A program made the translations under genes and the position numbers. A DNA stretch of 64,000 bases from Sulfitobacter sp. M05 (GTDB lineage Bacteria; Pseudomonadota; Alphaproteobacteria; Rhodobacterales; Rhodobacteraceae), in contig NZ_JABEDH010000004.1 of NCBI RefSeq assembly GCF_029285175.1, positions 124,001 through 188,000 of the forward strand, given 5' to 3'. Positions 1 to 14,761 of this stretch are shown one piece after another. Every line of letters begins with the position of its first letter. The first letter of the stretch is position 1. Below the pieces are notes generated by a model that saw only the letters and a program-made list of their open reading frames with translations, did not search any database and was not told the DNA's origin.

Positions 1-714
1 GGGATGGGGGCAGAGGAGCGTTTAACCTATCTTGCGGCCCGCTTTTCCCGCTCTGCCAACCTAAACCAGCTGCACGGCATCGCCGCAGGGAAACCGATGG
101 CCGCCGGATTTTCTGCGGTGGATGGTCCGCTTGTGTCCGCGCGCCATCTTCTGGTTGGGGATGCCGCATTGGCGCGAGATCCGATCGCTTCGCACGGGCT
201 GGTACATGCGCTGCGCAGCGGGGTTCAGGCGGCTGTGGCGGCAAAGACGATTCTTGACCCGGATTTAGACACCCGTGCTGCGCATAGCTTCTTGCGCCAT
301 AAACACCGTGCTGCCGTTGCTGCGGCGCGGCTTGCAACCCAAGGTGCCTATGCTGATCAATGTCGTTTCAAGACCAAGTTTTGGGCGGATAGGCCGTTGC
401 CGGAACCACCCGCCGCCTTGCCACGGGTCACGCAGGGGCTGGTCACATTGGCCGCACCGCTAACCCGCGCTGCGGTGTTGGGGCACGACAGGATCCACTG
501 GGCACCGGCAATCAAGCTGCTTGCGGTGGATGACTTTCTGACAGAGGCAGGGGGGCTGAACGCGCTGGATGTCGCGGCGGCCTGTCGCCCTGCGGCTTCT
601 CTGCATGAGGTTGCAAACCGGCTGGGCCGGCAACATGATAGGCGGCTTGTCTTTCGCGTTCTGGAGCGTCTCACCCTTGGCGGAGCCTTTGCTCAGGCAG
701 GGCTGAGCGTTTGA
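1..714 (+). CDS. FAD-dependent oxidoreductase/monooxygenase, C-terminal part (cut by window edge)
   Basis: The reading frame is open to the first base, so the gene starts outside the window and only about 237 C-terminal residues are seen. The stretch GDAALARDP followed by SHGLVHALRSG matches the second FAD-contacting motif (G-D-A-A...D-P...G-L..A) of the PHBH/tryptophan-halogenase-like flavoprotein superfamily. The N-terminal Rossmann GxGxxG would lie upstream. The last 100 residues resemble no domain I can name. Substrate cannot be told; flavin monooxygenases that modify peptides or amines (QhpG/LodB type) are one possibility. The gene converges on the cyclase gene and overlaps its 3' end by 22 bases. 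Confidence 0.6.
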   Translation, partial: GMGAEERLTYLAARFSRSANLNQLHGIAAGKPMAAGFSAVDGPLVSARHLLVGDAALARDPIASHGLVHALRSGVQAAVAAKTILDPDLDTRAAHSFLRHKHRAAVAAARLATQGAYADQCRFKTKFWADRPLPEPPAALPRVTQGLVTLAAPLTRAAVLGHDRIHWAPAIKLLAVDDFLTEAGGLNALDVAAACRPAASLHEVANRLGRQHDRRLVFRVLERLTLGGAFAQAGLSV

Positions 715-3700
715 ACAAGGGTGGCGGCGCGTTGGGTGTCCCAGCCCTGATCGTCAGAGGCCATTTTCAGCAGTGCCTTTTGCACCGCCTGCACCGTATC
801 GGGACCCGGATCGGCCATGGCGATGTCGCATTGGGCGCGCAGGGCCAAGGTCAGGGCACCGGCGCGGGTTGCACTTGCCAAGGCTTCCTGACGCAGCTGG
901 CGGGCCATCAGCTCCTCTCCGCGCGCGGCGGCAACTTGCGCCCGTAAGCGTAGTAACTCCGGTGCTGTCCAGGTCTCGCCGGTGGACATTTCAAGCGCGG
1001 CCCCCTCTGACAGGGCGGCCTCAGCTCCGTCAATATCATTGGCCCGCAAGGAAACATCCGCAATGAGGGAGGCCAGCAAGGGCCCGTAATTAAACGGATT
1101 TACCTTGCGAAATTCTTTGATCCGCAAGGCAAGATCGGACATCTCGGCAGGTTTTGGTGGCTCGGGCCGCAGGCACAGATGGGTTACAAAAGGAAACAGA
1201 AGAGCAACCGCCCGCATTACCCGGATATCGTGTTTCTCTCCCAGTTCAATCGCTTCGCTGGCAATAATCGAAAGCTCTGTGCCGTGCCGTGCAAGTGCCC
1301 CCAACATCACACGAAATGCCATCGCCTGTGCCATCGAATGGGCGTGACCGATTTCACGTGAATGTTCGATCGAGAAGGTCCCGAAATGGCGCGATTTGCG
1401 CAGATCACCGGTAAGCCAGTTTGACATGCACAGGAAGACGGCGCAGATTTCCGCATGGTCATAGCCATGTGCATGGGCCAGATGCAGATGGGCCTCCTTG
1501 TCGTATTGCGACAGGGCCATGTTCAGATTGCGCTGCGCTGTCACCTGATCAGAGCGGTGAAATGCCACAGCACCAATGGCGCGGGTGCCAATCATCACAA
1601 AGGTTTTCTCGCGGTTTCGGCGGGCGGTTTCCAACAGTGTTTCGGCGTATTCCTGCGCCCGAGGATAGTTGGCGCGCACCAGCGAATGGGCATAAAGCCC
1701 GTTCAGCGCCAGAAGCTCGGTCTTGCTGTCGCCCAGTTCACGGGCCAGCTGTACGGCCTGCGTGCCAAGGTCGGCGCTGGCGTCTGTTGCAATGCCAAAT
1801 CGCGACCGTTCCACCGAGGCAAGTCCGGTGATGATGCGCAAGTGTTCCTGTTTGTGCGCGCTGGTTTCTGGCAGGCGCTGAATGGCGGCATTGGCCATTT
1901 CAAGGAAATGCCCGGCCTCAAGCAGGGCAGAACGCTTTAACAGGCTTTCTCCGGCTTTCAGCGCGAGTATCACTGTGTTTTCCCAATTGCGCGCGACATG
2001 GGCGTGGGTCGCCAGAAGATCGGGGCGTTGTAATGCCGGGTCATCGTAATATGTTTGCAACGCTGACAAGGCGGCCGCGTGCAGTTTGCGGCGTGATTTC
2101 CCAACGATTTGTTCGTAGATGACATCGCGGTAAACTTGGTGACGAATGACTGCTTCAGTCTGCCCGTCGGTGCCTTTTAGCTGGATCAGCCCAGTCTGTC
2201 TGAGCGCGTCGATGGCCGGTTGCATGGTGTCGGGATCTTGATCAAGAACCGCCGCCAGAAGTTCAGGGCTGGACGGGCTGTCCAGAACGGCAAGGGCTTC
2301 GATCACACTACGACCCATGCGAATGCCGTCCAGCCGCTTGGACACGGATTCATAAATCGTATGGGGAATTTCGATGATGCTGGCGATGTCTGCCTGATGT
2401 CGCGCGGCCTGCGCATTGCCTAGCGTCTCAAGCATCAGGGGATTGCCACCCGAGTGGCTGAGGATGTTGTCGCGGATCGAATGGGGGATCGGTTTGGCCC
2501 CGAAAATCCCCTGCAACAGCTTTTCACAGTGCCGCGGGTTAAGCGGTTGCAGGGTCATGACCTCGTGCCCGTCCTGCCCCTCCCAGATGTCGGCGCTGTC
2601 TGGACGTGTCGCAGCAACGATCATCAAGACGGCACCATCCTTGCGGGCACGTTGGGCAGTGCGCTTCAAAAGCTCGCGGGTTGATTCATCGGCCCATTGC
2701 GCATTTTCCACAAAAACCAGCGTCGGGCCGGCGGCACCGCGAATGATCCACCGGCTGAGCAGGTCCAGGATACTTTCGCGGTCACGCAAGGAGACGGCCA
2801 CATCATTTCCCGATGGTGTATCCAGCCCGAGGAATTGCGCAGCCCGGATCAACAGCTCCGGTTTCGGCTCCCCTAAAAGGCTGGCCAAAGAGGGGGTTGT
2901 TGGCCCGCCGGTTGTCAGTGTCTCAAGGGCCTTGGCAACAGGCAGCAAGGGCGAACGGGTGCCCATGGCAGCACAATGCAGGTGCAAAACCCGCATGGAA
3001 GGATTGGTCTGTATCGACAAAAAGCTGTGGATCAGCGTCGACTTTCCGATGCCTGCATCCCCGGTGATGGTGATTGTGACGGGTGCGCCGGCCTGTGCAT
3101 GTGTCCATAGCTGGCGCAGGGTGCTGGCCTCGGTGTCGCGGCCAATCAGGGCGGCGGGTGCTGCCGGGCCTTCAACCTCGTGGCGCAACCCCAGCACATG
3201 AAACACTTCGGTCCCCGAGGGCAGCCCTTTGAGGTCATGGGCCTCGACCTCGGAATACAGCACCGCATTACGGGTCAGATGCTGGGTCTTGCTGTCCACC
3301 ACAATCGACTGCGGGTTTGCCACAGTTTGAAGCCGCGCGGCACGGTTGACCACGGGACCGACCAGTTGCATCGTATCCCCGCTTGATTGACCAACGGCGG
3401 CTTGACCTGTGGCAATGCCGATCCGTGTGGGGATGTGGAAGGATGCCCGCCCGTCAAAGGTAACCAGCCTTTCGGCAAGGGCGCGTTGCAAATCCTGCGC
3501 AGCCTGCACACAGCGTTCGGCAAAGCCGTCAAGCACACGCGGATAGCCGAACAGGATCACAACACCGTCGCCCTGTGACCCGACAAGATAGCCATCGCGC
3601 TGTTTGGCGATTTCCGTGGCCACCTGATAATAATGCTGCATGATGACTTGCATGTCTTCGATGCTGTGCTGCTGGCTTAATTCGGTCGAGCCGACAATAT

Positions 3701-4007
3701 CGCAAAACAGAACGCTGATGCGGCGCAGTTGAAGCGGGGCTTCCTCGGGTGCCTTTTTTTGGGGGGGGGCGGGGCTTGCCGGATCGGGCAGGGTTTCCAG
3801 TGCGGCAAGCAGTTTCTTGCGTTGCCCCAGTGTCAGCCCGAGTTCCTTCAGATCGGCCTTGTCCAGCATCCGCAAGGTTGGCATGTCGATATCTTCCGCG
3901 GCAAACAGGTCAAGCAGATGGGACAGGCCAATCCTGGCCAGAAACTCTGAAATCTGCGGTCCAGGGCTTGGCATGAAAAGGGTATTCTCCGCACGAATGA
4001 CTGACAT
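693..4007 (-). CDS. SAM - class III nucleotide cyclase - AAA ATPase - TPR signalling protein
   Basis: A 1104-residue multidomain regulator. Residues about 17-74 form a SAM domain. Residues 95-275 are a class III adenylate/guanylate cyclase domain with FCDIVGST (metal Asp near 103) and GSQGDG (second metal Asp near 147). A STAND/AAA ATPase follows, with Walker A GDAGIGKS near 316-323 and a hydrophobic-DE type Walker B (TLVFVENAQWAD). The C-terminal half is alpha-helical and TPR-like. This layout is known from large cytoplasmic proteins annotated as adenylate cyclases with an ATPase/TPR regulator. Both metal Asp residues are present, so it may make cAMP or cGMP. A second start at 3974 has a GGAG farther upstream. 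It lies downstream of the three-gene module, on the same strand, after 290 bases with no recognised gene. Confidence 0.85.
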   Translation of the reverse strand: MSVIRAENTLFMPSPGPQISEFLARIGLSHLLDLFAAEDIDMPTLRMLDKADLKELGLTLGQRKKLLAALETLPDPASPAPPQKKAPEEAPLQLRRISVLFCDIVGSTELSQQHSIEDMQVIMQHYYQVATEIAKQRDGYLVGSQGDGVVILFGYPRVLDGFAERCVQAAQDLQRALAERLVTFDGRASFHIPTRIGIATGQAAVGQSSGDTMQLVGPVVNRAARLQTVANPQSIVVDSKTQHLTRNAVLYSEVEAHDLKGLPSGTEVFHVLGLRHEVEGPAAPAALIGRDTEASTLRQLWTHAQAGAPVTITITGDAGIGKSTLIHSFLSIQTNPSMRVLHLHCAAMGTRSPLLPVAKALETLTTGGPTTPSLASLLGEPKPELLIRAAQFLGLDTPSGNDVAVSLRDRESILDLLSRWIIRGAAGPTLVFVENAQWADESTRELLKRTAQRARKDGAVLMIVAATRPDSADIWEGQDGHEVMTLQPLNPRHCEKLLQGIFGAKPIPHSIRDNILSHSGGNPLMLETLGNAQAARHQADIASIIEIPHTIYESVSKRLDGIRMGRSVIEALAVLDSPSSPELLAAVLDQDPDTMQPAIDALRQTGLIQLKGTDGQTEAVIRHQVYRDVIYEQIVGKSRRKLHAAALSALQTYYDDPALQRPDLLATHAHVARNWENTVILALKAGESLLKRSALLEAGHFLEMANAAIQRLPETSAHKQEHLRIITGLASVERSRFGIATDASADLGTQAVQLARELGDSKTELLALNGLYAHSLVRANYPRAQEYAETLLETARRNREKTFVMIGTRAIGAVAFHRSDQVTAQRNLNMALSQYDKEAHLHLAHAHGYDHAEICAVFLCMSNWLTGDLRKSRHFGTFSIEHSREIGHAHSMAQAMAFRVMLGALARHGTELSIIASEAIELGEKHDIRVMRAVALLFPFVTHLCLRPEPPKPAEMSDLALRIKEFRKVNPFNYGPLLASLIADVSLRANDIDGAEAALSEGAALEMSTGETWTAPELLRLRAQVAAARGEELMARQLRQEALASATRAGALTLALRAQCDIAMADPGPDTVQAVQKALLKMASDDQGWDTQRAATLVQTLSPA

Positions 4008-4297: not shown

Positions 4298-7200
4298 CTA
4301 GTGGTTCTCCTCCTCTTCTGCGGGGTCCTCTTCTAGCTGGGCGGCGGCTTCTAATGTCGCTTCGCGTTGCTCTAGATAAGTTTCGCGGCGTTTCTTGTCA
4401 TTGGCCACTTCACCCGCAATCATCTGGGTCTGCGCGGTCAGGCTTTCCACAACAGCGACAAAGTCGGCATGGGCCGCCCCGCCAGTCCAATCGCCGCCGT
4501 CCTCTGGTTCGCCGTTCTGTGGCGCATAAGAGCGCAGCGCCGCGATTAAACCGGATGCCGCCCCGCCAACGTCATTTAGGAATGTGTCATAGGCCGGGGT
4601 TTCGCGGGCCGGGTTCGAGATGTCGAATTCCGGAAAATCAGCGTCGCGCTTGGCCGCGTAATCCGCATCGGGCCCCAAGAGGCCCACCAACAGGGAAAGC
4701 TGGCGATCAATCTCGGGTGTTTTCACGGATGTGGGGGCAAGTGGGGGCGTGGCCCGCTCGGATGCGGCGGCCTTGAAACGCAACCAACTGACAAGTGTTG
4801 GAACCGGGGTGCCGGGGTGCCAGTCTTTCTTGATCGGGACCCGTTTCATGATCTGTGGGTCATCCGTATAAAGAGTTTCAAAATAGCAGACGACCTTCTG
4901 GCAGACGTTCTTTTGATCGGCCAGCACCTCGGGGGTGATGCCACAGCTGCGCCCGACTTCTTTTGCAATTGGATCACCGTCGATCACGATGCCATAAGCG
5001 ATGACGCATTTCGACAAGGTCGAGTTCCATTTCATCGCGGTGCGGGCTTTTTTACGGTCTCCGGGGGATTTGAGGGCCGTCTGATACAGATGCCAGCCGG
5101 CTTCTATCTCGGCTTCTTTTTGCATCTTATAGGCAAATTCGGTTAAAGCGCGGGCCATGCTGGTTCCGATCTGTATGCCGGCCCCAACCGCCGTGCCACT
5201 GCCCATGCTGACACCGGATGCATCGGCCAGTTTGATCGATTCAGACGCAACGCCAAGGCTGTCATAGAGTACCCGCAGCACTTGCAGGCTGACCTGAACC
5301 CGCGCCGAATTAAGCCGCCCGTTGATCGCAGGCCCATAGACGGAACTGTTACCGACGGTCAGGGCCATATTGTCCATCCATTTGTTCAACTGGTAGGACT
5401 TGCGCACCAATGTGGTGGCGTCGATCAACAGTTTCTGGATCGCCACGGCCAGCCCGGCCCCTGGCAGAGCAGCGGCCAAAGCGCTGGCACCAACGCCGGT
5501 GATCACCTCAAGCGCCTGCCATTTCATGTTACACGCACGGGCTTCGGCAAGCAGCTTGTCCATTGCTGCCATCGCTTGCTGTTCTTTTTCGACCGAGTCG
5601 AGATCTTGTGGCGGTTTGCCGGCATCCTCCAGAAGTTCGTTCAATACTTCTAACTCGCGCGCACTCGCGTCTTCGATCTGGGCGAAAAACTCGTCGCGAC
5701 GAGCTGGGTCTTGCAGATCTCTCTTGAAATCCGACATTGCGCGGGCCTTGCGGGCGTTCTCCTGCTCGGCCAGAAACTTTTTCTGCTCCATCAGGGCTTC
5801 GGCACTGTCGCTGGGTGCTTCCATTCCGAGGCTCGGCTTTGCGGTGCCTGCAAGGGCCTGCGCTGCATCCGCGTCATTATTGAAAATATCATTTTCAACC
5901 TGCGTCTTTTGGAGCAATGCAGCCGCTGACCCCATTTCGATGTCTTCGCCGGCCTTCACCGTGTAGGTGCCACCCGTAATTGCAGGCATGGCACCTGCCA
6001 AGGCGACGCTGATTGCGGAGAAGCCGACATTGGCCAAGATCACCTTCAAATCAACCTTGCCGCCGTCACTGGCAACCACATCTGCAAGATGTTTCGCGAT
6101 GGCGGGAATGTTGGAGGCGACAAGAATGGCTCCCTGAATGGTCAACCCCATCTGTTGCCATTTGGCCTGATCGCCCAGCACGGTATTGCCTTGATCATCG
6201 GTGCCGCGTTTGACATCGCCCGCGGCAAAACTGGCCCCAACGGCGCCCGCAATGCCGGTCAGTGCTTCGGTGATGGCAGCGACGCCGCCGTTGTAATCTC
6301 CGTCAGCGAATTTCATCGTTGCGGTGAAAAGGCTGAACCCGGTGTTTCCGCCCGCAATCAGCGCAGTGACTGATTTCGAGGCGATGTTCATCTGGGTCTG
6401 GAACGCCGATGTAAATGCTGTCGAGGCATCCGAGGCCACCACATTAGCAGAATAGACCGAAATCGACGCGGCGGCCGCATTGCCCAAGGCGTTGAACGCC
6501 GCTTTGGCGACCCCTGCCGCGAAGGTCCTGCGCCGCCCGTCCTCTGGTTTGTCCAAAGTGGAATCCAGAATGCTTAACCCACCTACCAAAACGGTGGTTG
6601 TCATTGTGACGGCGGCAACCTGCAAAGCCGCCTCGCGCCCCTGCTGCTTGAGAGCGTTTAACCTGTCGATATTTTCCAGTTGCTCGGGGCTCGCCGTGCC
6701 CGCTGTTTTTGCGGCATTGTCTCTGGCGAGGTCCAGCGTGTCCTGACGCGTCATAGTTTGCGCCTCGAAACTGTTGATCTTGATCGCGTCACCCGCAAGC
6801 GAGCCCATCAGGGAGACCACATCGGTGCCGATCTTGATGCCGCGTTTTACATTGGTGTATTTCGATGCGGACTTGGAGTAATCCTCCAGCTTGGTTTGGT
6901 AGATTTCGCAAGCGCCGTTAAAAACCTGCGCTTCCTGACTGTATTTGTCCGCAACCGCATTGGAAGGGATCACATCCGCCTGTACCAGTGGTGTCCATAA
7001 TTCGCGGGTAATATCGGCAGGGGTGAACAGCGGATTGCCATCCGCATCTGTCGCGGCCTCCATTTCGGCCTGCAAATCAAACAGTTTTTCATGCAGCCGT
7101 GCCAGCTCGCGCACGGCCTCGTCATCAACTTCGTAGCCGTCAACAAGATCATGCGTGGTATCAACCTCGTCATCGCGGTCGCCGTTTTTCCAATCCATGG

Positions 7201-7423
7201 TCCGGTTGGAGCGTTCGATCAGACCAAGAAATTTCTTGCGTTTCCATTCGACCTGTAGCGCGTCCGACGCGGCCATCAGGTCATCCTGTAAATCCGAAAT
7301 TTCATCCGTCACTTCTGCAAGAAGCTGGTTGCGTTCGTCTTGTCGTGCGATCAGCGCGTCAAAATCTATTGCGCTTTGCTGGGTCTTGGCGAGCCATTCG
7401 ATCTCTGGACTGGAAAAAGCCAT
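4298..7423 (-). CDS. Large uncharacterised protein, helical with hydrophobic glycine/alanine segments (1041 aa)
   Basis: I do not recognise this protein. Residues 1-120 are charged and probably coiled coil. Several Gly/Ala-rich hydrophobic stretches follow at about 266-286, 381-400, 427-440, 461-482 and 638-664. They could insert into membranes or pack as glycine-zipper helices. Residues 505-640 are again charged and helical. A compact region with several Cys follows (about 840-900). The tail is acidic and ends in EEEENH. There is no Sec signal peptide. The start has a GGAG upstream and lies 17 bases after the 927-aa gene, so the two are almost surely co-transcribed. Charged helices alternating with hydrophobic hairpins fit a pore-forming or membrane-delivered protein, but this is inference. 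Confidence 0.75.
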   Translation of the reverse strand: MAFSSPEIEWLAKTQQSAIDFDALIARQDERNQLLAEVTDEISDLQDDLMAASDALQVEWKRKKFLGLIERSNRTMDWKNGDRDDEVDTTHDLVDGYEVDDEAVRELARLHEKLFDLQAEMEAATDADGNPLFTPADITRELWTPLVQADVIPSNAVADKYSQEAQVFNGACEIYQTKLEDYSKSASKYTNVKRGIKIGTDVVSLMGSLAGDAIKINSFEAQTMTRQDTLDLARDNAAKTAGTASPEQLENIDRLNALKQQGREAALQVAAVTMTTTVLVGGLSILDSTLDKPEDGRRRTFAAGVAKAAFNALGNAAAASISVYSANVVASDASTAFTSAFQTQMNIASKSVTALIAGGNTGFSLFTATMKFADGDYNGGVAAITEALTGIAGAVGASFAAGDVKRGTDDQGNTVLGDQAKWQQMGLTIQGAILVASNIPAIAKHLADVVASDGGKVDLKVILANVGFSAISVALAGAMPAITGGTYTVKAGEDIEMGSAAALLQKTQVENDIFNNDADAAQALAGTAKPSLGMEAPSDSAEALMEQKKFLAEQENARKARAMSDFKRDLQDPARRDEFFAQIEDASARELEVLNELLEDAGKPPQDLDSVEKEQQAMAAMDKLLAEARACNMKWQALEVITGVGASALAAALPGAGLAVAIQKLLIDATTLVRKSYQLNKWMDNMALTVGNSSVYGPAINGRLNSARVQVSLQVLRVLYDSLGVASESIKLADASGVSMGSGTAVGAGIQIGTSMARALTEFAYKMQKEAEIEAGWHLYQTALKSPGDRKKARTAMKWNSTLSKCVIAYGIVIDGDPIAKEVGRSCGITPEVLADQKNVCQKVVCYFETLYTDDPQIMKRVPIKKDWHPGTPVPTLVSWLRFKAAASERATPPLAPTSVKTPEIDRQLSLLVGLLGPDADYAAKRDADFPEFDISNPARETPAYDTFLNDVGGAASGLIAALRSYAPQNGEPEDGGDWTGGAAHADFVAVVESLTAQTQMIAGEVANDKKRRETYLEQREATLEAAAQLEEDPAEEEENH

Positions 7424-7440
7424 GTTTATCTCCGCTCGGG

Positions 7441-10224
7441 TTAATCTTTGATTGCAGTCAAAAGCCGCATTTCCAGAAGCGGCAGCGCTTTGCGCGCGCT
7501 CACCATCTGATCAGAGGCTTCCGCTGTAGCAAAAGGATGGCTGCGAAAGTGCTGCATCGGGGCGAAACTATCGAATAATGCCATCAGCTTGCGCAGCTCT
7601 TGCAGGGCGGTTTTTCGGGCGATCTTGCGATCCGAAATGGTCTCGCTGCGGTCCGCCACACGGGCAGCCTGCCGGCTCATCTCAGCAAGGTTCACCTGTT
7701 GCAGCGACCCTTGCAAGTTGGTGAAGAAACCATTGATGCTGTTGGCATCAAGCGGCGGTTGATCAAGCTGGTTGCCCCCGTCGGTTGCGCCAGCGGGTTC
7801 GATCACGTCTTCGACAAAAGTACCCAGTTTGATCGAGAATAGCTCGGTTTCATGGGCGCAGTTTCTGGCGGCGGTCGTCAGATCACCGTCCATAATTGCG
7901 TTGGCCTTGCGCACATCCGCCGCGAGTTGAGCCGCGCGGCTGTTGAGCCCTTGAAGCTTGGCCAGACCGTCAATATAGCCGCCGGTTTTTTTGGTTTCAG
8001 CTTTTAATCCGTCGCGCTCTGCTTCCAATCGGGTGATCTCACTCTGGTCTCCCTTGAGGGCGTCTTTGGTTTCATCCAGAAGCGTTGTCAGCTCTGAAAT
8101 GCCGCTTTTGAATTCCTCTTTTTTGGCTTCGTTGGCATCATGATCCAGCTGGCCGGAACGCGCGACGCTCAGCAAGGCCTCTACATGTTCGGCCTCCACC
8201 GCCTCCAACGTTTCACCCGCCTTTTGCTTTTTCAGGATAGAAAGCAGCCAGCCCAGGTTTCCGTTGATCTGGATCAGCGCCGCTGCCGCCTGCTTGAGTG
8301 ACGCGGGCGAACGCTCTGCAATCTGGTCCCGGATCGTCGACATACGCGCGACTTCGGGTCCGTAATACCCGTCAAATTGGACAAAGCCGGTCTGGTCTTT
8401 CTTAAGCCGTTTGCCGATCGATTCGATGATCTGGTCCACAGCGTCTGCCTGTTTTGCAAGCGACCGTTTCAAGGTCTGCAACTCAAGCATTTCGGCGCGG
8501 AAGGTCATCACGCGATTATGCAAATCGTCTGTATCCTGGGTCACCGTTTCCTGTGGCTGCGTCAGGTGGTTTGCGCGCAACGCCCCCAGCTCGGTCGTGA
8601 AGTCCAAAAGGCGACCGGGTTCATACAGCGGGAACAGTTTCTTCGTTTTGGCGATGCTCTTTTCCACCCGGGTGAACCCTTCTGAAAGGGTGACATAGAT
8701 GTCCGGGTTTTCCTCAATCGTTCTGATAAAGGTCGCGACTCCGGCAAGGTATTCATCCGCCGTTTTCAATGCATCCACTGAATCGCTTTCGATCAGCTGT
8801 CTTGCGGCAAGCATCTGAAGTTCGATTTCTTCCAGCGCACCACGCGGCAAATCGCGGTTCTTTTTCTTGCCTTTCTGTTCGCCGGATTTGGTATCTTTTT
8901 GGGTGATGATTTCACCGGCGCTGTTGGTTTTGAAAAAATCATGAAATTTGTCTTCAAGTACGGCTAGCTCGACCTGCATCTCGGCGGGTTTGAGGTTGGA
9001 GCGGCGCAAGTCCTGCTCCTTGGCCTTGTCCAGCCGCGCCCGCACATATTCAGCGACTTCGCGCGCATCCTCTAGGACCTGAGGCATATGGGCCTGCACC
9101 TCTGCCAGACGCATACATTCATCCAGTTTGCGTTGGCATCTTTCGGGGCGCACCCGATGGCCGTTTGCGCGCAAGGTGGCAATGTCGGTTCGCGTATCAG
9201 CCCAAATTTGCACCACTTGCAGAGCTTGATTATGCGCTGCCGTGACTTCCTGACCCAGATCTGTGACCTGTTTCAGATAGGTGTCGCGCAGATCGGGGGC
9301 GTTGGTGGCAATGGCATTTTGGATAGTTGCGGACAGGGCTTCATGCCGGTACTCGAATTGTTCTGCAACGGTTGGCATCCCCTTGCCGCGCAACAGGGAA
9401 ATTTGCGAGGCCACTTCGCCCATCGGGCCGTCCAGATCACCGTGTTCGCTCACCGGGGTATCAAGGGCGGTGGCACCGGTACGGGCTGTGCGATATGTGT
9501 TCAGTTGGGTTTGTGTTTGGGCAACGCGGTCAATCGCGGCCGCCAGATCACCCGTGCCGACAATCAAAATGGCCTGTTCCAGCATCCCGAACAGAATTTT
9601 ATATTCGGCCCCGTTAATTATTGCATAACTCAGGGTCTTGCCGTCGCTCACGGAGGTGATTTTCATCACCTCAGCGCGGGCCCGTTCGATATTGCCTTGG
9701 ACCATCACATGCTGTTGGCGGAATTGCGCCAGCAGATCCTGATCCAGGTCCTCAAGAGGCACGGCACCACCTTGAGCTTCCAGTCGGCGGATTTCCTCGC
9801 GCACATCCGCCACATCTTGCCTAAGGTGCCCTTCAACGGCCCGCAATTGCGCGACATGGGCATCAACCCGCTCGACAATGGCAAGGTCGGCCTTGTCGCT
9901 GGCTTGCACAATTGCCAGATCCTCGCGTTCCTGCTGCAAGGCGTCGATGTCGGCATCCGCTGGCGGGTTCGCAATTGCTGCGTCCAGGGCGTCCAACCGG
10001 TCTTCCTGCTGGGCAATCACGTCGCGCAAAAGCGCGCTGCGATCCCCGTCCAATGCAAAGGCACGGTCTTCTTGCAGTTGGCGTTTCGGAGAGGCGCGTA
10101 GGTTTTCGGCATCTGGGCGCGAGGTGTTTCTGCCGCGAAGGGATTTCCAGCCACGCGCACGGTTAAAGGCAGCAATCCACTCGCTTACCGGTGTATCCAA
10201 TACAAGATTGGGTGATTTACTCAT
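7441..10224 (-). CDS. Large coiled-coil protein of unknown function (927 aa)
   Basis: A soluble protein rich in Gln, Glu, Ala and Leu with long predicted helices and heptad-like spacing over most of its length (roughly 60-180, 270-420, 560-780). It has no signal peptide, no clear membrane segment and no catalytic motif I know. A Lys-rich patch (GEQKGKKKNRD) lies near the middle. The ATG is preceded by GGAG. Gaps of only 14 and 17 bases to its neighbours place it in the middle of the three-gene transcript. It could be a structural or scaffold partner of the hydrophobic 1041-aa protein. I found no basis for a specific function. Confidence 0.75.
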   Translation of the reverse strand: MSKSPNLVLDTPVSEWIAAFNRARGWKSLRGRNTSRPDAENLRASPKRQLQEDRAFALDGDRSALLRDVIAQQEDRLDALDAAIANPPADADIDALQQEREDLAIVQASDKADLAIVERVDAHVAQLRAVEGHLRQDVADVREEIRRLEAQGGAVPLEDLDQDLLAQFRQQHVMVQGNIERARAEVMKITSVSDGKTLSYAIINGAEYKILFGMLEQAILIVGTGDLAAAIDRVAQTQTQLNTYRTARTGATALDTPVSEHGDLDGPMGEVASQISLLRGKGMPTVAEQFEYRHEALSATIQNAIATNAPDLRDTYLKQVTDLGQEVTAAHNQALQVVQIWADTRTDIATLRANGHRVRPERCQRKLDECMRLAEVQAHMPQVLEDAREVAEYVRARLDKAKEQDLRRSNLKPAEMQVELAVLEDKFHDFFKTNSAGEIITQKDTKSGEQKGKKKNRDLPRGALEEIELQMLAARQLIESDSVDALKTADEYLAGVATFIRTIEENPDIYVTLSEGFTRVEKSIAKTKKLFPLYEPGRLLDFTTELGALRANHLTQPQETVTQDTDDLHNRVMTFRAEMLELQTLKRSLAKQADAVDQIIESIGKRLKKDQTGFVQFDGYYGPEVARMSTIRDQIAERSPASLKQAAAALIQINGNLGWLLSILKKQKAGETLEAVEAEHVEALLSVARSGQLDHDANEAKKEEFKSGISELTTLLDETKDALKGDQSEITRLEAERDGLKAETKKTGGYIDGLAKLQGLNSRAAQLAADVRKANAIMDGDLTTAARNCAHETELFSIKLGTFVEDVIEPAGATDGGNQLDQPPLDANSINGFFTNLQGSLQQVNLAEMSRQAARVADRSETISDRKIARKTALQELRKLMALFDSFAPMQHFRSHPFATAEASDQMVSARKALPLLEMRLLTAIKD

Positions 10225-10238
10225 GATGTTTTCTCCGG

Positions 10239-11600
10239 TCAGGCGGCGACGGCTGCGGCAGCGCGGTCAATTTCATCCAGCGCCTTACCCAGATGACTGC
10301 GCAGATCGACGGTCACGCCGAACGGGTTTTGTTCACAAAGTGTGATCAATTCATTGCCGTCCAGAAATGTGCGGTATTCCTTGCATTGTGCTTGCAGGGC
10401 CGCGGCGGCTTTCGGGCGGCCAGCCGCGTCAACATTCCGGAAATCCATCAGATGTTTCATCAAGGCGGTCTGGTTGCCCTGTGTGATGCCGTTCAGGCCC
10501 ATCTCGGCGATGCGTTCCAGATCGGGGTCGGGAATCTGGCGGATTTTGTTTTGCAGTGCTGAAATTGCGCTGTCGGTTGCTTCTTTTGCGGTGTTCCAGA
10601 TTGTCAGCGGGTCCGTGTCGGGCGTGGCGTCTGACGGCGACGCGGCGACAGTCTTCAAACCTTGTTGTATCGCGCGCAGCCCGCTCAGGGCCGGATCAAC
10701 TGCGCCATCGCGAATATGCCCGATCACGTCGCGCAATTCACTTTTCAGGGCGGCGCTTTGCTCACCTTCCGGCAGGGCTTTCACTTTGGGGGCAAGCTGT
10801 GCCGCAGCTTCCTGAAGTTTCTTCAACGTTGCCGGGTCACCGCGTGGTTTTTCAATGGTGGTTGCGCCGCCATCCGGGGCAACGGGGGCTTCGGCGTCAC
10901 GCGAGGCTGATAGCTTTTTTAGAACCTGTTCAATCGTATCAAGCGTTTTGGCCGCATCGTCAGCCTTGCCGGCCTTAAGCTGCGCGACAGCTGCGCCAAA
11001 GGCCTGTCGCAGCTTGTCTCCCGACGGGCTGGGCACCGCCATCACCTCAGGTTGCAGGGCTTTTGCCCGCGCAGCCAGTGCTTTCAGATCGCCGCCGCTT
11101 TGATCCGGGGCGGGTGTTTCCTCCACCGCTTCCGGTGTCGGAGAAGGTTCAGCTGCTGTTTCGGGGGGAGGAGCGGCTGCGGCTGGCTGGCTTTGGGTCG
11201 TCTGTGGCGCTGTCTGCGGCGGGGCATCATCCGGATCGTCCGGCAGATCTTCGATGTCCTCTTCCGTGACGTTGCCGTCCATGTCCAGAATGCGGACGTT
11301 CTTGGACACTTTGTTTAATTTCAGGAACTTCTTAACTTTCTTGGCCAGTGCAGGCATAGCCTTTTCGCACTGTAAAGAAATGACCTTGCCTTCCATCTGC
11401 AATGTACCAAACGCCACCTTGGGCCCGTCGCCGGAGGCCCGCAGGGATTTTGCCATAACCGCGGCTGGTTTTTTGCGATGTAGCCCGAAGAGGTCTGTTT
11501 CGACCTTTGATCCGGGGCAGTAGGCGAATGAAATTGGCGCCGCTCGTGAAAATTTTAATAACTTCTTTAATTCGGCACCCTCAACGGAAAAATCCGACAC
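10239..11600 (-). CDS. Uncharacterised protein: basic N-terminal domain, P/A/Q-rich linker, helical C-terminus (453 aa)
   Basis: First gene of the three-gene module. The open frame runs further upstream, but a GTG at 11600 is preceded by AGGAG at good spacing, so I place the start there. Residues 1-122 form a compact domain with FAYCPG, LHRKKP and the tail DMDGNVTEEDIEDLPDDPDD. Residues 122-168 are a Pro/Ala/Gln/Glu linker. The rest is alpha-helical. The N-terminal domain is not one I can name; basic beta-strand/helix content ending in an acidic patch suggests a binding domain. There is no signal peptide. Its position as operon leader suggests it is needed with the two larger proteins. Confidence 0.75.
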   Translation of the reverse strand: MSDFSVEGAELKKLLKFSRAAPISFAYCPGSKVETDLFGLHRKKPAAVMAKSLRASGDGPKVAFGTLQMEGKVISLQCEKAMPALAKKVKKFLKLNKVSKNVRILDMDGNVTEEDIEDLPDDPDDAPPQTAPQTTQSQPAAAAPPPETAAEPSPTPEAVEETPAPDQSGGDLKALAARAKALQPEVMAVPSPSGDKLRQAFGAAVAQLKAGKADDAAKTLDTIEQVLKKLSASRDAEAPVAPDGGATTIEKPRGDPATLKKLQEAAAQLAPKVKALPEGEQSAALKSELRDVIGHIRDGAVDPALSGLRAIQQGLKTVAASPSDATPDTDPLTIWNTAKEATDSAISALQNKIRQIPDPDLERIAEMGLNGITQGNQTALMKHLMDFRNVDAAGRPKAAAALQAQCKEYRTFLDGNELITLCEQNPFGVTVDLRSHLGKALDEIDRAAAAVAA

Positions 11601-11971: not shown

Positions 11972-14761
11972 TTAGGCGGCTTTATCGTGATCCTCAGCGG
12001 GCGGGGCGCTTTGCGGTTCCGCATTGTCAGTGCCGGCGGGCGTCATCGTTGAGAACCCCGATACCATACCTATAAGCTGTTGAGATTGTTCTGTTAAAGA
12101 TTGGTTCGCTGCGGTTGTCTCTTCGAACATGGCTGCGTTTTTCTGGGTATTGCTGTCCAGTTCTTCAACAGATTGATTGATGCCCGCTAAGCTGCGCGAC
12201 TGCTGATCCGAGGAGGAGGCAATCTCGGTCATTGTCTGTGCCATTTTCGAAATTTCGTTCAGGTTCCAATCAAGCCAATTGCTGTTCTCGGCAAGCAGGG
12301 ACACACCGGTTTCAACCTGCGATGTGGAGAGTGAGACAAGTGATTTTATCTGATCTGCGGCTTCAGAACTGCGGTGCGCCAGTTGACGGACCTCCGAGGC
12401 GACAACGGCAAATCCGGTGCCTGCTTCTCCTGCGCGGGCCGCTTCCACTCCGGCATTCAACGCAAGCAGGTTGGTTTGGAAGGCAATGGCGTCAATAACG
12501 CCGACGATCTTGCCAATCTCGCTTGAGGAACCTTCGATTTCCCGCATCGCATGGACGGCATCGGTCATTACCTGGCGGCTTTGTTCGGTTTTTTGGCTCA
12601 CCTCATTGGCATCCCGTGCTGCGTTTGACGCCCCTTTTGCCGCGGCAGATACACCTTTTGTCATTGCATTCAAAGCGGTGGCAGTCTGTTCAAGTGTGGT
12701 CGCGGCTTTCTCGGTGCGGGTGGCAAGATCCAGGGATGCTGCGGTGATTTCGCTGCTGCTCTGGTCAATCGTGTCCGCGCAAATACCGATGTTGTCGATG
12801 ATACCAGACAGGCTAACGACGGCAGTGTTATAATCTTTGCGCAGCCCTTCATAACTTTGTGGAAAGGCGGTTTCGATCGCAAGGGAAAGGTCACCTTTGG
12901 AGAGCCGGTGAAGCCCGTCCGCAAGCTCCGATACCACCAGCGCCTGTTCCTTCGCCCGCAGGTCACGCTCTCGCTCTTCTTTGAGGCGAATTGCCTCTTC
13001 GCGGGCAAGTGTTTTGGCCTCGCGGTCACGGTCCTCTTTTGCGCGGGTTTCCGCAAGCTGGCGGGTTTCTTGTTCCGCCTCTCGCTTTGCCTGTTCCGCA
13101 CCGCGTTCGGCGGCCAGCCGCTCTTCCTGATTGCGTTTTTCATCCGCTTGCAGCCGGATGCGTTCCAGAGCTCCTTGCCTGAAAATATGTAATGCCCGGG
13201 CCAATTTTCCGATCTCGCCATGTTGCTGGGTCAATTCGGTAATCTCCGAAAGGTCGCCACGGGCAAGGCGTTCAGTGACTTGGGTAATGCGATTTAATGG
13301 TCTGGTGATCATCCACCAGATCAAACCCGGCGCGAGCAAGACGATCGCCGCGCTCGTTATGCTGATGATCCGGATCCGGTTTTGCGCAGTCCTGACCTGA
13401 GCGTTCAGGATGGCGGCGCTGGATTCGATATGAGAACGCGCGACAAAGGCGTCCTCGGCCACAACCGTCGCGATCTGACCGACAGCATCTGTTGCAGTCT
13501 GAGTAGCCTGAACGGCCCGTTGGTTTGCCGTAATTGCCGCCCCTCTCGTAAAAACGATTCCCTTGGCTGGATCGGCCATTTGCAGAATTTCTGTCAGGTA
13601 TTCCCGTATGTCCGCGCCTGTCGCCTCCATAGCGGTTGCCAGCTGCGCGGCTGCCTGCTGCAGCTCCGCGTCATTGCGGTCGAGTTCTGCCGCATCGCGC
13701 GACAGGGCAACCTGTAATATTGCTGAAATTAGGGATTTCGTCGCGGCATTCAGTGCCGCCTGCTTTCGTATGCCCATAACCTGCTCATCCAGCAGAACCT
13801 TGATCGCTTCTTGGTTGGCGGCTTTTGTATCTTCGCTTTTTATGACAAGTTCGAAATAGATATCGTCCAGTGCCGCTGAAAGGTCGGCGTCTGCGGCTTG
13901 GCGCAAGGCCAAAATGGCGGTCGGGCGGACTGTCCTGCCGGTGTTTTTGAACGTCTTCATCAACTCTGTCTGCGACTTCTTCAAACTTTCAGCCAAAGCC
14001 TGTGTTGTTTCGGCCGAGGACAGTTGCCGGAGTAAATCGTTCAGGTGCTTGTTCGCCGCCGTCGCCAGATCGGCAAGAACGGTACGGATAGAACTGTCTG
14101 TGGTCTGCGTCTGGCTCAACGCCAAACCGGACAGAAGGTTCATTTTCGAATGAACCGTCAGCGTGGACTGGTACAGTGCAAAGTCGCTTTCGATGAGCTG
14201 CGTGAGGCTGGCGTCAACAGAGTTGATGGTGGCATCGCCCCCGGTAACCATCTGCGCAAAGGCCGTGTCGGAAGCCTCAGCAAGAATCCCTGTGGCCCCT
14301 GTCGCAAGCCGGAGCGCTTCTTTGATCTTATCTGCGACCGACGCTTGGCTAAGCAGTGCTTTTTTTCGGGCTGTTGTTAGGTCGGCCAGGCTATCTTCGA
14401 CCTCGTTTACCAATTTGGTCATATCTTCCTGGGCCTCGGGTAGGCCTGTGCCTGTGTTTTCGCGCAGCGCAGCAAGGGGGGGCTGCATGGCCTTGGCCAA
14501 ACGGTCCAGTTCAGCTGTGGACTCGGCGACCAATACCTCCAACAGAATGTTTCTAACTGTGTCGGTGGTGGTGACAACCTCGGCACTGGTGCGCAATTCT
14601 GGCAAGTATTCATCGGTCAGCACGGCCATGTTGCTGGCGATGGATTGGAACACCAACCATGCCACCACAATAGCGGCTGTTGTCATGGCGGCCAAGGCCC
14701 CAAAAATCAGGCCAAGCCGGACAATGACCGATCCCAAGGCGTTTGATATTCCAGATTTCAT
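11972..14761 (-). CDS. Methyl-accepting chemotaxis protein (929 aa)
   Basis: A transmembrane chemoreceptor. A membrane helix near residues 12-36 is followed by a long periplasmic helical sensor of about 430 residues. A second membrane helix precedes a HAMP domain ([19 protein letters not shown]). A long Arg/Glu/Ala coiled coil leads into a second HAMP-like segment ([14 protein letters not shown]) and then the signalling hairpin. The hairpin tip, [20 protein letters not shown], is the conserved CheA/CheW-binding signature. The periplasmic part is larger than in classical receptors. It lies directly downstream of a Liv-type binding protein, with a hairpin between. That suggests the binding protein presents a ligand to this receptor, though no direct evidence is in the sequence. 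Confidence 0.93.

Follow-up and report, generated by a model that had tools for sequence, protein, structure and literature searches.

Roseobacters have been reported to encode a type VI secretion system (T6SS) with TssCL, a second sheath protein that contains both TssB and TssC domains. The accessible text of the 2022 paper (PMC9515649) deals with this fused sheath protein and with a search for effectors in Leisingera ANG-M7, and states that no T6SS function had then been described for the squid symbionts or the reference roseobacter genomes it treats. The delivery-related domains closest to the case described here are RIX (PMC10435454) and WHIX (PMC12135965). We analyzed a window of 64,000 nucleotides from Sulfitobacter sp. 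M05 (contig NZ_JABEDH010000004.1, positions 124,001 to 188,000; genome G000, contig C11), which contains three consecutive genes, designated P1, P2 and P3 as the first, second and third gene of a module. The three genes probably form a cargo operon of a TssCL-type T6SS, an operon that in most cases lies apart from the T6SS cluster itself. Comparison among genomes shows that the gene order is kept, that one type of T6SS is associated with it, that P1 is akin to proteins encoded in T6SS clusters, and that the N-terminal domain of P1, termed P1N, also occurs on toxin-like proteins. The elements of the module are located in the window as follows.

P1: 10239-11600, minus strand; 453 aa, GTG start; predicted basic alpha/beta N-terminal domain, acidic P/A/Q linker, helical bundles and conserved C-terminal helical domain
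P1N domain: 11238-11600, minus strand; about 121 aa, undescribed, N-terminus of P1
P1 C-terminal domain: 10251-10655, minus strand; residues 316-450
P2: 7441-10224, minus strand; 927 aa, highly charged, probably helical
P2 conserved C-terminal segment: 7444-7770, minus strand; residues 819-927
P3: 4298-7423, minus strand; 1041 aa, mostly helical by low-confidence prediction, with five strongly hydrophobic stretches
P3 hydrophobic stretch: 5402-5521, minus strand; residues 635-674 around Pro654, possible hairpin
P3 conserved motif: 4991-5026, minus strand; residues 800-811, N-S/P-T-L-S/A-K-...-A-Y-G

Relatives of P3 were found in 7 of 98 related genomes and in 18 genomes of a 394-genome family sample (nearly one per genus), the own genome being counted in both cases, and in three named loci, from Szabonella alba, a Rhodobacteraceae metagenome-assembled genome and Gemmobacter straminiformis. 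A plasmid search gave a single relative on NZ_CP042263, the same plasmid as in genome G190, and none was found in phage records. For comparison we used 25 distinct P3 loci including the window, about ten of which served to build the profiles. A gene of 773-1234 aa lies directly upstream of P3 on the same strand in all 25, at a gap of -4 to 43 bases; its product matches the P2 profile in 20 loci and the P2 C-terminal profile in 24 (ten of these sequences built that profile). The next gene upstream is P1-like in 19/25 loci, with P1N present in 17 of these 19, and at L018, L056 and L065 P1 is close by, yet divergent or one gene away. Judged by these comparisons, P1-P2-P3 is a conserved linked module. 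The initial annotation had named linkage across genomes as a check, and the linkage is there; neither housekeeping homology nor a lack of linkage elsewhere, which it regarded as refuting its proposal, emerged from the family scans and the 25 loci.

TssC (PF05943) is encoded in 102 of the 394 family genomes, and all 18 P3-positive genomes carry it (p 8e-12, the P3 and TssC samples being taken as identical since size and genomes agree); for this and the following p values every genome counts as independent; related genomes are not fully so, and the p values therefore overstate the proposed association. Within the genus, 20 of 58 genomes have TssC and 9 of 58 have a second VipB in a frame of >1000 aa; the seven P3-positive genomes all fall among these nine (p 1.2e-7). 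In G487 the P2-P3 pair forms part of the T6SS cluster, flanked by tssM/PP2C on one side and a gene for a Ser/Thr kinase on the other. In G185, P3 shares a contig with tssC at a distance of about 10 kb and is adjoined by caspase-like and OmpA genes. In G024, distances of 26 kb and 40 kb separate P3 from the second TssC and from tssC, respectively, on a contig with T6SS genes and with kinase and OmpA genes nearby. Plasmid NZ_CP042263 carries both the module and a T6SS, approximately 200 kb apart. For the remaining P3 loci, the module is on another contig or far off, or the position of the T6SS was not looked at (e.g. L013). The genomic evidence for a link between the module and the T6SS is strong, and since this T6SS is encoded at another site in the genome, a role of P1, P2 and P3 as its cargo and adaptor is more likely. 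The initial annotation had suggested a multi-part assembly, perhaps a membrane-perforating or delivery system. Of this suggestion, the linked module, the delivery and the adaptor fit the data; a perforation machine that stands by itself is not supported, because of the tie to a T6SS encoded elsewhere. An independent perforation or delivery system of several parts would accord with three large co-conserved proteins and the hydrophobic stretches of P3, but the co-occurrence with one T6SS type (18/18 and 7/7), the kinship of P1 with T6SS-cluster proteins and the lack of hydrophobic N-termini make it very improbable.

The P1 protein provides a more specific connection. The T6SS cluster of G000 on contig C7 (about 1090078-1118358) includes a gene for a 506-aa P1N protein, divergent from a tssA-like gene that was assigned by position, as annotated in NZ_CP042263. 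P1N was detected in 34 of the 394 family genomes, with 88 domains listed and 84 distinct frames of 122 to 1953 aa. TssC is present in 33 of these 34 genomes (p 1.4e-20), and all 33 encode a second, divergent TssC, in frames of at least 900 aa (29 genomes) or of 588-746 aa (4 genomes). All 18 P3-positive genomes have P1N. A P1N gene is situated at most 3.5 kb from tssC in 19 of the 33 genomes, where chance alone would place about 0.15 domains, and at most 10 kb from it in 21. Beyond the family, P1N turned up in G096 and on the Hyphomicrobiales plasmid CP131057; samples of the class (308 genomes) and the phylum (329 genomes), both with some family members, contained no further P1N beyond G096 and the own genome. 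A profile built on the C-terminal domain of long-form P1 retrieves the P1N proteins of the T6SS clusters of G000, G141 and G487 (3/3 tested) with E values between 1e-35 and 3e-29. For P1 of the window, this domain is linked to the long form by profile comparison only (hhalign probability 87.6%). By these matches, both the N-terminal and the C-terminal end of P1 have relatives among T6SS-cluster proteins, including those of its own genome.

A TssB-TssC fusion or an acidic linker was considered as the feature linked to P1N and was rejected, as the P1N genomes G173, G227, G315 and G340 have an apparently unfused second TssC, and fused TssB-TssC occurs without P1N in G368 and G359; only the second TssC is therefore claimed. 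A second TssC without P1N was seen in G218, G284, G341, G359, G368 and G420, and a weaker or differently placed one in G425 and G467. The TssCL protein of G000, a fused TssB-TssC (L067 9454-12906; G000:C7:1097454-1100906), has a long acidic linker repeating a DDLDxLLxxL-like motif, with six copies in G000, ten in G302 and none in some others; the motif is a candidate docking site. The cluster on C7 also contains an Ion_trans ion-channel gene (L067 12915-13772) and, past the P1N gene, MotA/ExbB-like and DUF4384 genes (L068 6782-9642). A second T6SS-like cluster of G000 with TssC is located on C14 (L069, G000:C14:24752-36580).

Of the 84 P1N frames, 21 are at least 800 aa long and have differing C-termini, and 21 hand-picked proteins form several C-terminal groups without mutual similarity. 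In 11 of the hand-picked proteins, an HExxH motif is found near the C-terminus, within a common domain of about 350-420 aa; ten of the eleven have P1N, and the eleventh, a protein of 1707 aa without P1N, adjoins the T6SS cluster of G000. Beside nine of the eleven HExxH proteins there is a CpXC-like gene of about 220-250 aa, an assignment based on two scanned neighbors that match CpXC (PF14353), a third that is so annotated, and the others beginning like a CpXC protein. L117, L118 and L120 have another common C-terminus and a 148-aa neighbor, and L119 ends in an M15-peptidase-like stretch that scores below the Pfam cut-off. The gene for the 1707-aa protein is followed by a CpXC gene (L068 9639-15460; G000:C7:1117639-1123460), and the two are likely a T6SS effector pair of their own genome, as far as motif and neighborhood indicate. 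A plasmid of Leisingera sp. NJS201 encodes an 1848-aa P1N protein, annotated as hypothetical, with an HExxH ending beside a CpXC-domain gene (L046 7974-13520), and a P1N-HExxH protein with a CpXC-like neighbor is encoded in G124 (L110 2620-9009), a genome in which no TssC was detected. The starts of long P2 proteins resemble that of the 1707-aa protein by eye, a similarity that neither profile nor BLAST comparison found.

The genes flanking the module mostly have no match in the other loci; the rest match one or few, the commonest being ABC-transporter genes (4-5 loci), and a run of common flanking genes exists only between G000 and its nearest relative, G008. An ABC transporter gene and an HlyD gene are located directly upstream of P1 on plasmid NZ_CP042263, which would suit cargo of another route, e.g. 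type I secretion, with a secondary T6SS linkage. However, this HlyD gene has no match in the other compared loci; type I secretion was dropped as the route, and we regard a route other than the T6SS as the least probable explanation, with hardly any weight. In the window, a chemoreceptor gene (11972-14761), located 371 bases from the P1 start, has no match in any compared locus, and a cyclase gene (693-4007), located 290 bases past the P3 end, was dropped as a module partner since it matches only G008 among them. The latter, which adjoins the module, has a product of 1104 aa that combines SAM, adenylate cyclase and AAA_16 domains and matches Pycsar cyclase models (best E 8e-14).

At the level of the individual proteins, much of the initial annotation held. 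The three minus-strand genes of 453, 927 and 1041 codons are indeed tightly spaced, with gaps of 14 (P1/P2) and 17 (P2/P3) bases. The frame of P1 is open further upstream (575 aa), and the GTG at 11600 was preferred as start because the alignment of relatives begins there. The first 120 residues of P1 comprise 21 K+R versus 15 D+E and are followed by a P/A/Q-rich linker, in line with the basic domain and linker noted before. Hydropathy analysis of P3, averaged over 19 residues, reported nine stretches at 1.0 or above; in five of them the mean reaches at least 1.4, and five is the number of hydrophobic segments originally given; P2 has two stretches, weaker than those of P3, and P1 none. A hydrophobic N-terminus was not seen in the hydropathy of P1, P2 or P3, which agrees with the predicted lack of signal peptides. 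P3 is not a chance frame, because relatives with identities from 84 down to 27% keep it open; 46 positions, counting the start Met, are the same in 23 or more of the 25 proteins. Pro654, identical in 25/25, lies at the center of a stretch of 40 residues. The peak hydropathy of this stretch ranges from 1.26 to 2.24 across the 25 proteins, and the stretch suits a membrane-inserting hairpin.

Scans of P1, P2 and P3 against Pfam, NCBIfam, PHROGs and PADLOC reached no curated cut-off and gave no convincing E value, so that the absence of a recognized family, as first noted, was confirmed; for the long coiled coil first noted in P2, the only pointers were sub-threshold matches to helical families, and none of the three matched a T6SS core family of Pfam or NCBIfam up to E 1. 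Comparison of P1 with profiles of the Protein Data Bank (PDB) gave helical look-alikes only, with the best E value (0.007) to a designed protein. An AlphaFold2 (AF2) model of P1, built from four sequences, had a mean confidence score (pLDDT) of 72 and the secondary-structure order H-E-E-H-E-E-H-E-E (H, helix; E, strand) for P1N. Foldseek found nothing significant for this model (best E 0.048), and VIA-align gave rows chiefly over common helical bundles (residues 255-453). Searches of 64 P1N domains against Pfam and NCBIfam showed no convincing family, none being common to more than five members. The P1N profile weakly matches the eukaryotic ribosomal protein eL22 (E 0.0005 to 0.0008), with a tandem SUMO chain scoring better in the search that gave 0.0005. 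The strand and helix order of eL22 agrees with the P1 model. No P1N member matched the Pfam eL22 model among the matches listed, and the eL22 chain is absent among the VIA-align matches listed for the P1 model, which is no evidence against eL22; the relation is kept as a lead only. The P3 relative on NZ_CP042263.1 (L045 9992-13060) is annotated as a VapC family toxin, a name to which the family scans of the window's P3 give no support.

From the comparison of the genes we infer secretion, complex formation, membrane activity, toxicity and a target of P1-P2-P3. P1N would act as a delivery domain that brings P1 to the T6SS tube or spike, and the helical C-terminal part of P1 would hold P2 and P3, so that P1 would carry both out together with the tube or spike; this adaptor mode is proposed by analogy with RIX adaptors (PMC10435454) and with WHIX proteins that lack a toxin part (PMC12135965). 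P2 would serve as a long connector and P3 as the active part, most likely inserting into or disturbing a target membrane. P3 is probably a membrane-active effector; its membrane action is proposed because of the hydrophobic segments, one of them around Pro654. The full version of this model, in which P1N is a new delivery domain proper to the TssCL-type T6SS and the products of the module are fired together as a toxin complex of three parts (docking adaptor, connector and membrane-inserting effector), is more tentative, and we give it somewhat less than an even chance.

Several observations weigh against the cargo interpretation. Secretion of P1-P2-P3 is proposed here from the comparison of genes and not from direct proof. 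P3 is absent from 84 of the 102 T6SS-positive family genomes, and proximity to T6SS genes was seen for only three of the 25 P3 loci. G124 has P1N without TssC, G096 combines P1N and a T6SS without a second TssC, the loci L058, L059 and L066 (3/25) have no adjacent P1, and in G033 the P1-like gene comes without P1N. P3 matched no toxin family in Pfam, NCBIfam, PHROGs or PADLOC, its PDB profile matches were helical look-alikes only (best E 0.56), and its AF2 model, built from four sequences, was poor (mean pLDDT 46) and not fit for a fold search. No conserved immunity-like gene was observed 3' of P3 in the 24 of 25 loci compared for small frames; such frames matched between G000 and G008, and four more pairs of loci had matches with E values of 0.003-0.008. 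The target could thus be non-bacterial, or P3 could be no toxin; predicted anti-eukaryotic effectors without an immunity-like neighbor are described in the accessible text of PMC10435454. The lacking immunity-like gene would also suit a non-secreted T6SS accessory, i.e., a cytosolic scaffold, chaperone or regulator that builds or places the machine, with P3 in the inner membrane. P1N genes within 3.5 kb of tssC, as for a machine part, and hydrophobic stretches of P3 that could act as an anchor point in the same direction, whereas the patchy occurrence of the module (18 of 102 T6SS-positive genomes), its rare location near T6SS genes, and the presence of P1N on large proteins whose C-termini vary, and in one group include a protease-like motif, argue against an accessory. 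We consider the accessory role unlikely, though worth keeping in mind, and favor the assignment as T6SS cargo, under which P1N provides a sequence handle for candidate T6SS cargo in this group (84 frames, 34/394 genomes) and ties such cargo to a T6SS type with a second sheath protein; the three-part operon offers a directly testable case of delivery.

The T6SS found with P1-P2-P3 corresponds to the TssCL type, with a long second TssC containing TssB and TssC domains, as set out in the accessible text of PMC9515649, which names no P1N-like domain or three-gene module. A whole-word literature search for TssCL and type VI secretion returned this paper alone, and title and abstract searches (mostly open-access coverage) on T6SS in Rhodobacteraceae, Roseobacter or Ruegeria, on TssB-TssC fusion, RIX/MIX and CpXC gave no description of P1N or the module. 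Membrane-active T6SS effectors of the Tme and colicin-like kinds, as listed in excerpts of PMC10435454, have hydrophobic segments in common with P3; compared by description only, P3 differs in having no family match and a much larger conserved body. Like the domains of the MIX, FIX, RIX and WHIX kind, P1N is N-terminal on diverse C-termini and occurs in genomes with a T6SS (33/34). WHIX is T6SS-specific as well (>98% of genomes T6SS-positive) and is sometimes found without a toxin part, encoded upstream of a separate enzyme; by description only, it differs from P1N in being bipartite, with a WHxxxH motif, and mostly joined to peptidoglycan enzymes (excerpts of PMC12135965). RIX, according to the accessible sections of PMC10435454, likewise precedes polymorphic C-termini, has a similar share of T6SS-positive genomes (97.7%, versus 33/34 for P1N), and in its adaptors is encoded by the leading gene of operons of three genes that lie outside the T6SS cluster. 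However, RIX is about 55 aa long, arginine-rich, with two predicted helices, and occurs in Vibrionaceae and Moritellaceae, whereas P1N, set apart by the RIX description, has about 121 aa, is lysine-rich and predicted alpha/beta, and occurs mainly in Rhodobacteraceae. The RIX operon, as described there, encodes adaptor, effector and immunity protein, while the order proposed here is adaptor, connector and effector, with no immunity gene seen; if true, this would be a layout undescribed for T6SS in the compared portions of the RIX, WHIX and TssCL literature.

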